NCBI GenBank assembly: GCA_021325195.1
Contig: JAJPHQ010000055.1
Span: 1 to 35,441, forward strand
Source: Gammaproteobacteria bacterium
GTDB lineage: Bacteria; Pseudomonadota; Gammaproteobacteria; Xanthomonadales; Rhodanobacteraceae
Length of the DNA stretch: 35,441 nucleotides
Reading direction: 5' to 3'
The position numbers and the translations under genes are program-made. Shown piece after piece: positions 1,925 through 16,532 of this stretch. The notes beneath the pieces are model-generated. The model worked only from the letters and a program-made list of their open reading frames with translations. It had not been told where the DNA came from and searched no databases. Each line of letters starts with the position of its first letter. Positions within the stretch are counted from its first letter, which is position 1.

Positions 1925-1957
1925 CTTCGGTGCGCTCTCCAAAAGCTCGACACGGAG

Positions 1958-1969
1958 CCATCCATGGCG
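1958..1969. repeat. Short palindromic repeat core upstream of HAD gene
   Basis: The 12-mer GCCATCCATGGC lies between the HAD start and the glnS stop. The same 12-mer opens the repeat copies at 8281 and 16128. The adjacent CACGGAG at 1952-1958 also occurs, in the opposite orientation, within those copies, so this looks like a shorter or diverged member of the same dispersed family. Confidence 0.5.
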
Positions 1970-6948: not shown

Positions 6949-8240
6949 TGACAGAGCATGTGACCGTGCACCCCCGCAACCGTCTCGCGGCGTGGATCGA
7001 GGAGCGCCTGCCGGTGTTCTCGTTCCTGGCTTCGCACACCAGCGGTTATTACGCGCCCAAGAACTTCAACGTGATGTACTACTTCGGTTCGCTGGCGCTG
7101 CTGGTGCTGGCCAACCAGATCCTGACCGGCATCTTCCTGACGATGTTCTACAACCCGAGCGCGGCCGGCGCGTTCGACTCGGTGCAGTACATCATGCGCG
7201 ACGTGAAGTGGGGCTGGCTGATCCGCTACATGCACGAGGTCGGCGCGTCGATGTTCTTCATCGTCGTGTATCTGCACATGTTCCGCGGCCTGATGTACGG
7301 CTCGTACAAGAAGCCGCGCGAGCTGGTGTGGCTGCTGGGCATGCTCATCTTCCTGGCGCTGATGGCCGAGGCCTTCATGGGCTACGTGCTGCCGTGGGGC
7401 AACATGTCGTTCTGGGGCGCCAAGGTGATCATCACGCTGTTCAGCGCGGTGCCGTGGATCGGCGACACCCTGGTCACCTGGATCATGGGCAACTACTTCC
7501 CCGCCGACGCCACCCTGAACCGCTTCTTCGCGCTGCACGTGATCGCGCTGCCGCTGGTGCTGCTGCTGCTGGTGGTGCTGCACCTCGCCGCGCTGCACGA
7601 GGTCGGGTCCAACAACCCCGACGGCGTGGAAATCAAGCAGAAGAAGGGGCCGGACGGGCATCCGCTGGACGGCATTCCGTTCCATCCGTACTACACGGTG
7701 AAGGACCTGTTCGGGGTGGGCGTGTTCCTGATCATCTGCGCCTTCATCATTTTCTTCGAGCCGACCGTGGGCGGTTACTTCCTCGAGCCCGACAACTCGA
7801 TTCCCGCCAACAACCTGGTCACGCCGGCCGCGATCAAGCCGGTGTGGTACTTCTCGCCGTTCTACGCGATCCTCCGGATGATCCCGAGCAAGGGCTGGGG
7901 CGTGCTGGCGCTGCTGGCCTCGATCGTGCTGCTGTTCCTGGTGCCGTGGCTGGACCGCGGCAAGGTCAAGTCGATCCGCTACCGCGGCACCGGCTACAAG
8001 GTGGCGCTGACGATCTTCGCGATCGTGTTCGTGCTGCTGGGCACGATCGGCGCGGACCTCACCGCGATCTGGATCCCCGAGATCTTCGGCGCCAACGCCG
8101 ACGTCACCTTCATCGAGAACCTGTACGGCCGGATCCTGGTGATCCTGTATTTCGGATTCTTCGTGTTCCTGTGGGCGTACACGTATTTCGGCTGGGAGAG
8201 GACCAGGCCGGTTCCCGAGCGGGTGAGCATGCATGAATAG
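6948..8240 (+). CDS. petB: Ubiquinol-cytochrome c reductase, cytochrome b subunit
   Basis: The di-heme membrane subunit of cytochrome bc1. The heme ligands are visible as two pairs: His96/His110 (RYMHEVG...YLHMFRG) and His197/His212 (FALHVIA...LHLAALHE). The Qo-site loop reads PVWYFSPFYAILR; the canonical PEWY Glu is Val here, a variant I recall from other beta/gammaproteobacteria. About eight transmembrane helices are apparent. A GTG at 6945 also precedes; I chose the ATG at 6948, which overlaps the petA stop by one nucleotide and has AAAGGGG upstream. The protein is about 430 aa, normal for the full-length bacterial form. The petC gene follows after an unusually long, repeat-filled gap. Confidence 0.97.
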   Translation: MTEHVTVHPRNRLAAWIEERLPVFSFLASHTSGYYAPKNFNVMYYFGSLALLVLANQILTGIFLTMFYNPSAAGAFDSVQYIMRDVKWGWLIRYMHEVGASMFFIVVYLHMFRGLMYGSYKKPRELVWLLGMLIFLALMAEAFMGYVLPWGNMSFWGAKVIITLFSAVPWIGDTLVTWIMGNYFPADATLNRFFALHVIALPLVLLLLVVLHLAALHEVGSNNPDGVEIKQKKGPDGHPLDGIPFHPYYTVKDLFGVGVFLIICAFIIFFEPTVGGYFLEPDNSIPANNLVTPAAIKPVWYFSPFYAILRMIPSKGWGVLALLASIVLLFLVPWLDRGKVKSIRYRGTGYKVALTIFAIVFVLLGTIGADLTAIWIPEIFGANADVTFIENLYGRILVILYFGFFVFLWAYTYFGWERTRPVPERVSMHE

Positions 8241-8470
8241 CATGTGTGCGCCATCCCTGCGCATGAAAGCGGCCGGAGCTGCCATCCATGGCAAAGAGCT
8301 CCGTGGCCGCCCTTCTCGCCATGCCGAATTACCCGCCCGTGAAAGCGGACGTTGGCTGGGCTGTCCCTGCAAGAAAAGGCGGCCATCCACGGCCGCGGGT
8401 TGAGTGCGCTGTCCCTGCGCGTGAAAGCAGACAACCCCGTCTGCACTTCTCGCAAACAAGATGGGCTTCG
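8241..8470. repeat. Cluster of degenerate short repeats between petB and petC
   Basis: The 230-bp gap holds four degenerate copies of a unit resembling TGCGCGTGAAAGCGGNC, at 8259-8274, 8337-8350, 8368-8384 and 8417-8432. Three are preceded by a (G/A)TCCCTGC box. CATCCATGG/CATCCACGG palindromic cores occur at 8283 and 8384. The minus strand stays open here, but only as low-complexity Arg/Pro/Gln sequence. This is a dispersed intergenic repeat cluster, not a gene or CRISPR: the units are diverged and irregularly spaced. Confidence 0.7.
8281..8308. repeat. 28-bp dispersed repeat, intergenic copy
   Basis: Begins GCCATCCATGGC and ends AGCTCCGTGGCC. It matches the copy inside purK (16128-16155) at 27 of 28 positions, differing only at the 13th base (A here, C in purK). 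The core is partly palindromic (CCATGG, GAGCTC). Confidence 0.85.
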
Positions 8471-15299: not shown

Positions 15300-15344
15300 A
15301 GTCGGCAGTAACGGGGGCCGTTGCGCATGCGATCCGGCAGCGTC

Positions 15345-16532
15345 ATGTCTGAGGTTTCGCAAACGGTCGGCATCCTGGGTGGCGGCCAGCTCGCGCGCAT
15401 GCTGGCGCTGGCCGCCGCGCCGCTGGGCGTGCGCTGCTTGGCTGTGGACCAGGCCCCGGACGCCTGCGCAGGGCAGATCGCGGAACTGGTGCAGGCCGAA
15501 TGGCATGACTTCGCCGGGCTGGAACCGTTCGCGCATCGGATCGACGTCGCCACGTTCGATTTCGAAAACGTGCCGGCGGAAACCGCCGAATGGCTGGCCG
15601 AGCGGACGCGCGTGTTTCCGAATCCCCGCGCGCTGACGGTGGCGCAGGACCGCCTGACGGAAAAGAACCTGTTCCGGGCCTGTGGCCTGGACACGCCGGC
15701 ATTCGTCCCCGTCGATACACGCCCCGGCCTCGACGAAGCGCTGGGCAGGATCGGCGCGCCGGCCATCCTGAAGACGCGCCGCTTCGGCTACGACGGCAAG
15801 GGCCAGTTCCGGATCAAGTCGCCTGCGGACGCGGATGCGGCGTGGCGGGCGCTGGGCGCGCACACCGGACGCGCCGGATTGATCCTGGAGTCCTTCGTCC
15901 CGTTCGTGGCCGAGGTTTCGGTGGTGGCGGTGCGCGCGCGCGACGGGGATTTCCGCACCTGGCCGCTGACCCGCAACTGGCACGTGGACGGGATTCTTTC
16001 CGCGAGTCTGGCGCCTGCGCCGGCCGATGACGCGATCGCCGGGGCCGCGTTCGCGCACGCGCGCGCGATCGCCGAGGAACTGGATTACGTGGGCGTGTTC
16101 GCGCTGGAGCTGTTCGTGTCGGCGGATGCCATCCATGGCCAAGAGCTCCGTGGCCAAAGGCTCCTTGGCAACGAAATGGCGCCGCGTGTGCACAACTCGG
16201 GGCACTGGACCCTCGACGGCGCGGTCACCTCGCAGTTCGAGAACCACCTGCGCGCGGTGCTGGGCCTGCCGCTGGGCGACACCTCCGCGCGCGGTGTCTC
16301 GTGCATGCTCAACTGGATCGGTGAATTGCCCGATCGCGACGCGCTGCTCGCGGTTCCCGACGCGCACTGGCATGACTATGGCAAGTCGCCGCGCCCCGGC
16401 CGCAAGGTCGGCCATGCGACCGTGTGTGCCGGCGACGCCGGGACGTTGGCGCAACGGTTGCAACGGGCCGCTCGCGCGCTGGGTCGCGAGGCGCAGGTGC
16501 AACCTGTCGTGCAGGCGCTGGCGGCGACATGA
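15345..16532 (+). CDS. purK: N5-carboxyaminoimidazole ribonucleotide synthase, with in-frame repeat insertion
   Basis: An ATP-grasp enzyme that makes N5-CAIR from AIR, bicarbonate and ATP and feeds PurE. Clear elements are the N-terminal VGILGGGQLARMLA, TFDFENVPAE, the ATP-binding KTRRFGYDGKGQF, and the Mg/ATP segment NEMAPRVHNSGHWT followed by TSQFENHLRAVLGLPLG. Between the strand ending ELFVS (about 255-259) and RLLGNEMAP there are about ten residues more than in E. coli PurK. They read AIHGQELRG (262-270) and are encoded by the 28-bp dispersed repeat at 16128-16155. The frame is kept and downstream motifs are intact, so the enzyme is probably functional. The start ATG at 15345 lacks a strong Shine-Dalgarno. 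The protein is 395 aa. Confidence 0.95.
   Translation: MSEVSQTVGILGGGQLARMLALAAAPLGVRCLAVDQAPDACAGQIAELVQAEWHDFAGLEPFAHRIDVATFDFENVPAETAEWLAERTRVFPNPRALTVAQDRLTEKNLFRACGLDTPAFVPVDTRPGLDEALGRIGAPAILKTRRFGYDGKGQFRIKSPADADAAWRALGAHTGRAGLILESFVPFVAEVSVVAVRARDGDFRTWPLTRNWHVDGILSASLAPAPADDAIAGAAFAHARAIAEELDYVGVFALELFVSADAIHGQELRGQRLLGNEMAPRVHNSGHWTLDGAVTSQFENHLRAVLGLPLGDTSARGVSCMLNWIGELPDRDALLAVPDAHWHDYGKSPRPGRKVGHATVCAGDAGTLAQRLQRAARALGREAQVQPVVQALAAT
16128..16155. repeat. 28-bp dispersed repeat, copy inside purK
   Basis: Matches 8281-8308 at 27 of 28 positions. It starts exactly at codon 262 of purK and is read in frame as AIHGQELRG plus the first base of the next codon. Confidence 0.85.

Follow-up and report, generated by a model that had tools for sequence, protein, structure and literature searches.

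The purK gene of the window (the whole stretch of DNA analysed, 35,441 nucleotides) contains a 28-bp segment that recurs almost unchanged in an intergenic stretch of the same window, raising the question of whether a mobile repeat has entered a conserved gene, kept its reading frame, and become part of the protein. The best-known examples of palindromes turned into protein parts come from Rickettsia, which are obligate intracellular bacteria. We compared the window with the 2.92-Mb genome that holds it (G000) and with 15 genus relatives (G001–G015). The following elements of purK are relevant to the argument:

15327 to 16532, plus strand: purK, 5-(carboxyamino)imidazole ribonucleotide synthase (from the translation; the start codon is provisional)
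16128 to 16155, plus strand: 28-bp repeat copy GCCATCCATGGCCAAGAGCTCCGTGGCC, read as AIHGQELRG, inside purK
16128 to 16157, plus strand: net 30-bp insert (10 residues, 268-277) relative to an empty PurK site (from relatives and PDB alignments)
16140 to 16169, plus strand: 15-bp imperfect tandem pair CAAGAGCTCCGTGGC / CAAAGGCTCCTTGGC, 12/15 identical (from the sequence and relatives)

Reading purK from 15327 gives a frame that stays open through the insert up to 16532. The gene is single-copy (one match in its own genome), and its product scores above the cut-offs of NCBIfam TIGR01161 and NF004679. The translation confirms what the initial annotation had read, with the repeat beginning at a codon boundary and A-I-H-G-Q-E-L-R-G forming PurK residues 268-276. 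The same annotation had put the surplus at about ten residues, in agreement with the 10-residue gap opposite the insert in both PDB alignments inspected (2 of 21 PDB sequences matched) and with the 11 of 13 genus relatives that are without the insert; the indel that it expected at residues 260-272 exists, but is located at residues 268-277. The sequence across the insert region of the window PurK is ELFVSADAIHGQELRGQRLLGNE. In the tandem pair, the repeat's 3′ half stands first and a stretch similar to it comes next, where native codons belong, whereas purK of G001 and purK of G004 contain a single such 15-bp stretch.

Further occurrences of the repeat, or of its 12-base core, are located elsewhere in the window:

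8281 to 8308, plus strand: intergenic repeat copy GCCATCCATGGCAAAGAGCTCCGTGGCC, 27/28 identical to the purK copy, amid other short repeats
8382 to 8393, plus strand: core with one mismatch GCCATCCACGGC, in a simple hairpin, in the same intergenic stretch as the copy at 8281-8308
1957 to 1968, plus strand: exact core GCCATCCATGGC without the remainder of the 28-mer

Direct comparison of 16128-16155 with 8281-8308 gives the count originally claimed, 27 of 28. The repeat had also been described as palindromic; it contains two overlapping short palindromes, and not one perfect palindrome. By eye, the intergenic stretch 8240-8460 contains further short repeats, consisting of CTGTCCCTGCGCGTGAAAGC-like units, together with a hairpin.

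Searches of the genome and its relatives reveal a dispersed family that extends beyond the two loci first noticed. Specifically, the 28-mer has 16 copies in G000 at ≤3 mismatches (reversed-pattern control, 0), and the 12-base core has 53 exact copies in G000 (control, 0). The core is found in 16 of 16 genus genomes, all but two of which are multi-contig drafts, at 16 to 90 copies each (control, 0 to 2 per genome), and the longer repeat (27 positions, ≤3 mismatches) is found in 14 of the 16, with no control matches. Outside the genus, the longer repeat is present in 2 of 217 family genomes, in one copy each, again with no control matches. For the analyses below we used two separately selected, mostly overlapping sets of 118 copies, one for gene location (own genome plus 12 relatives) and one for consensus and nesting; genus copies fetched by place are a partial sample that favours GGC-ending over GGT-ending copies and in which G014, the genome richest in copies, is represented by few. 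The core is also central in several otherwise unrelated G000 repeats, having the forms GGCAG-core-CTGCG and GACTCGC-core-GCTCGCCC (e.g., L017, L018, L020, and L044).

These data bear on whether the PurK loop could be a native adaptive elongation, with its match to the repeat being coincidental or secondary. A few extra residues do occur in the same turn of some distant PurKs (e.g., Ancylobacter and Methylocystis loci). However, all 28 bases of the purK copy are the repeat family's majority base at each position, no chance match at ≤3 mismatches appears in 100 dinucleotide shuffles of the window, and the identical peptide is present in unrelated proteins, making a native origin hardly credible. 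We consider that the PurK segment is very probably a copy, inserted in frame, of a REP-like mobile palindromic module (core GCCATCCATGGCCAAGAGCTCCGTGGCC) that is nearly restricted to the genus and is tolerated in protein loops; the mobility of the repeat is itself something that we infer from sequence comparison.

Alignment of purK across the genus reveals both empty and filled sites. The site is covered by a PurK match in 13 of the 15 genus relatives (G006, with a partial match, and G010, with no match, are not counted): insert-free PurKs (11 relatives), a PurK with 18 additional bases (G001), and a PurK with 15 additional bases (G004), as compared to 30 in the window. The G001 and G004 inserts have the same core at the same codon as the window, and in both the 3′ half of the repeat replaces the native ELLG codons, which resemble the repeat. 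The pattern of core plus NEMAP codons is found in 3 of 233 family genomes, namely G000, G001, and G004. From 593 candidates, 80 titled PurK loci were retained, and none of these has an AIHG-like segment; the best titled PurK relatives are Lysobacteraceae, Rhodanobacter, and similar, and all 80 are more distant than the genus. With 2 of 13 genus relatives and 0 of 80 titled loci having it, the loop is not general among PurK homologues.

The three carriers occupy different places in the trees: the sister of G004 is the empty G008, G001 falls in a group with G014 and G005, both empty, and G000 is placed with G004 and G008, with its position being unsupported in the PurK tree with outgroups. Forcing the three carriers into a single clade is rejected whether PurK is left out of the tree (p-AU 7e-6) or the tree is that of PurK (p-AU 8e-88). 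Because the carriers do not form one clade, repeated hits on the PurK site are likely; judged from these sequences, the site has probably been hit more than once, and the simplest reading is that one PurK codon gained an insert on two or more separate occasions.

Two other histories have to be weighed against separate gains. In the first, the insertion occurred once in an ancestor, was inherited, and was then precisely lost from most lineages. Such an origin would account for the use of the same codon in all three carriers and for the CTC CTT GG that follows the core in all three and in none of the empty PurKs inspected, and the trees would permit a partial form, in which G000 and G004 share one event and G008 has lost it. 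The rejection of a carrier clade nevertheless stands against it, as does its requirement for clean losses in G008, in G005, in G014, and in a larger clade, all to outgroup-like codons, and we regard it as unlikely. In the second, the insert moved between species through recombination of a purK segment, which would yield a similar insert at the same site in separate lineages. The 60-bp PurK flanks do not discriminate between vertical descent and such short conversion (the left 60 bp of G001 matches empty G003 and carrier G000 alike, at 88%), but over the left 240 bp the flank of G001 is closest to that of its insert-free relative G014 and the flank of G004 to that of insert-free G008, the right flank of G001 is closest to G005 and G014 (with that of G005 being short, at a contig end), and the insert lengths are unequal (30, 18, and 15 bp). 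Recombination thus appears very unlikely, and separate gains remain our preferred reading.

The predicted structure of the window PurK places the added residues in a turn. The AlphaFold2 model (37 sequences) has a mean pLDDT of 91.8, and the insert is framed by strands 256-266 and 277-285. Residues 268-275 have pLDDT < 50, the sole such run of three or more residues besides the N-terminal eight. The best PDB match of the model is PurK 3aw8 (rmsd 1.5), with E. coli 1b6s and 3eth lower in the ranking. Residues that are invariant in the 37 sequences are retained on either side of the insert (e.g., E261, N282, and E283). The low-pLDDT residues between strands, together with the retention of the conserved flanks, predict a flexible turn beside conserved strands. 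In particular, the added residues are predicted to be the low-confidence, probably disordered tip of a beta-hairpin, with the conserved ELF and NEMAPR strands next to it, so that the surface loop proposed in the initial annotation falls, in the model, at a beta-hairpin turn.

PurK is not the sole protein to carry the repeat. Using our own codon model seeded with PurK sequences, we located 14 of 118 distinct copies inside predicted genes and the others outside, as compared to a predicted coding share of 0.82 for the same loci, which makes copies in genes rare. The 14 copies are not all independent, since ValS and MurL each appear twice, and they represent 12 distinct genes. In an NCBIfam scan that covered nine of the 14 gene products, eight score above the curated cut-off (PurK, ValS, MurL, IleS, UvrB, GcvT, DusB, and the aspartate kinase of locus L199), and the PgpA match is under its cut-off. 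The repeat is open in all six frames, of which the one encoding AIHGQELRG is read in 7 of the 14 in-gene copies (P ~0.004 versus 1/6) and in 6 of the 12 distinct genes (P ~0.008).

Comparison of these genes across the genus reveals further filled and empty sites. In GcvT, the repeat is present at one site in G005 and G001 (2 of 16 genomes; +24 bases versus empty), G003 has another short insert, and 13 genomes are empty. In MurL, the repeat is present in G001 (+33 bases) and absent from its relative G005 (91% identical), and in G000 the same variable region of MurL contains a copy in reverse orientation. At the IleS site, in a survey that leaves out G012, nine genomes are empty, the G003 sequence is different, G015, G010, and G007 contain an in-frame class-B-like parent repeat, and G001 contains the parent repeat with the element nested inside, making it 27 bases longer than that of G015; G004 is empty at that site and has a repeat plus element farther downstream. 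The occurrence of in-frame copies within further conserved genes, at sites that are empty in relatives, supports the proposal that a mobile repeat entered a gene in frame.

The same proteins contain other variable inserts. IleS has, near residue 297, different in-frame repeats by species at two adjacent sites (L348, L349, L351, L361, and L362). GcvT of G000 (contig C55, L293), G001, G004, and G013 (L292, L294, and L295) has a second, different in-frame insert of ~42 residues (~126 bp) at one site, absent from the other 12 genomes; the insert DNA is 86-90% alike, as compared to 61-76% at the fourfold sites of the gene. ValS (L318-L332) has further in-frame inserts that vary by species, one group near aligned columns 459-490 and another near columns 849-932; some in the second group resemble by eye the translated CCCTCTCCC repeat.

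Analysis of the surroundings of the 118 copies reveals that the module is frequently nested in longer repeats: class A (50 copies; parent CAGAACGGCC...TGACTTTTCACAA), class B (18 copies; parent CCCTCTCCC...GGGTGAGGG), class D (8 copies), class C (5 copies), and class E (3 copies; parent TCCCGGCC...GGGATGAC), with 34 copies located elsewhere. Pairs with the module present versus absent, which are different loci of one repeat and not orthologous sites, differ by a 27-base step in class B (L023 versus L014) and a 28-base step in class A (L185 versus L197), and neither of the two pairs has a target duplication of ≥3 bp. Over PurK, GcvT, MurL, IleS, and the parent-repeat pairs, the steps range from 15 to 33 bp, and are mostly 24-33 bp. 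At five sites (PurK versus G004, GcvT, MurL, class A, and class B), an observation and not a statistic, the 3′-terminal TCCNTGGCC of the module continues into a GGC or GTGG that pre-exists at the empty site.

We propose that copies of the repeat spread into new places, that selection would purge most insertions in genes, and that the surviving gene copies would be those that are in frame, stop-free, and in tolerant turns. Because the TCCNTGGCC end meets an existing GGC/GTGG stretch, and because there is no duplication of ≥3 bp in the two pairs, the mover is probably a single-strand hairpin process, either RAYT-like transposition or template switching. In such a process, which would fit these observations, a short single strand that forms a hairpin may be copied to new sites, either by a RAYT-like enzyme or through template switching that its TGGCC end guides.

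The hairpin itself is without support as a feature that matters: no palindrome base pair covaries above its column shuffles, and the DNA fold energy of the 34-base consensus is ordinary relative to shuffles (z -0.40). Covariation as proof of a selected hairpin was rejected, with one double change (A-T to G-C) in 118 copies.

A RAYT as the present-day mover was likewise rejected: PF01797 (Y1_Tnp) has no match in G000, and its presence in 7 of the 16 genus genomes (6 above cut-off) is unrelated to copy number. There is also the reading in which a RAYT transposase acting on GTAG REPs moves the element as a passenger. At G014 L147 1026-2161, a Y1_Tnp gene, assigned to RAYT by its family and neighbours, lies between GTAG-type units that hold nested element copies on either side, with four exact GTAGGAGCGGC on one side and TGCAGGAGCGGC and CCTCCTAC units on the opposite side, and this arrangement would allow transport of the element as a passenger. 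However, PF01797 is unmatched in G001 and G004, which like G000 are rich in copies, the element is near only 1 of 13 PF01797 loci (~1.5 kb searched on each side), and the majority consensus of 118 copies with 40-bp flanks contains neither a GTAG nor a CGTC tag; we therefore consider passenger transport doubtful. A more far-reaching idea, which we think improbable, is that of a ~27-bp self-spreading module that would keep frame by its length, home via TCCNTGGCC homology into the hairpin loops of repeats and into matching codons, need no host RAYT, and repeatedly hit the same protein loops in separate lineages.

The closest known systems include intragenic REPs (GTAG/CGTC superfamilies), which are described as 20-40-bp palindromes that are mostly intergenic, with some wholly within conserved genes; in-frame examples have been published from several species, among them copies in tRNA synthetases of X. 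oryzae, and in recB at approximately the same site in two Xanthomonas species (PMC3733652). The window family is likewise 20-40 bp, palindromic, and present in many copies, but its consensus is without the GTAG/CGTC tag of REPs, and its module nests in other repeats, is nearly confined to one genus, and has probably hit one PurK codon repeatedly. The initial annotation had drawn an analogy to Rickettsia palindromic elements (RPEs), which are palindromic, occur in frame inside unrelated conserved genes, and have lengths given as 105-146 bp or about 150 bp (PMC2229807, PMC10969869). The analogy holds for in-frame copies within unrelated conserved genes, but not for unit size, ~27-30 bp in the window family and thus nearer to intragenic REPs, nor for the host, a relative of Rhodanobacter and other Lysobacterales and not Rickettsia. 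MITEs, according to the same sources, are short, non-autonomous, dispersed elements that sometimes form in-frame gene fusions (PMC2229807, PMC10969869). The window repeat shares their short, dispersed, in-frame-in-gene character but is without target duplication in two parent-repeat pairs, and the search for a parent transposon covered PF01797.

The literature searched, available in part, contained no description of the window repeat family. In-frame intragenic REPs are already published, and the novelty lies in the family described here, in the way it nests, and in its probable repeated hits on a single codon. With copies in other housekeeping genes as well, the repeat is a good natural example of how repeat DNA turns into protein, and a genus with empty, intermediate, and filled states (IleS, GcvT, PurK, and MurL) offers a direct look at movement, frame-keeping, site choice, and loop neutrality.
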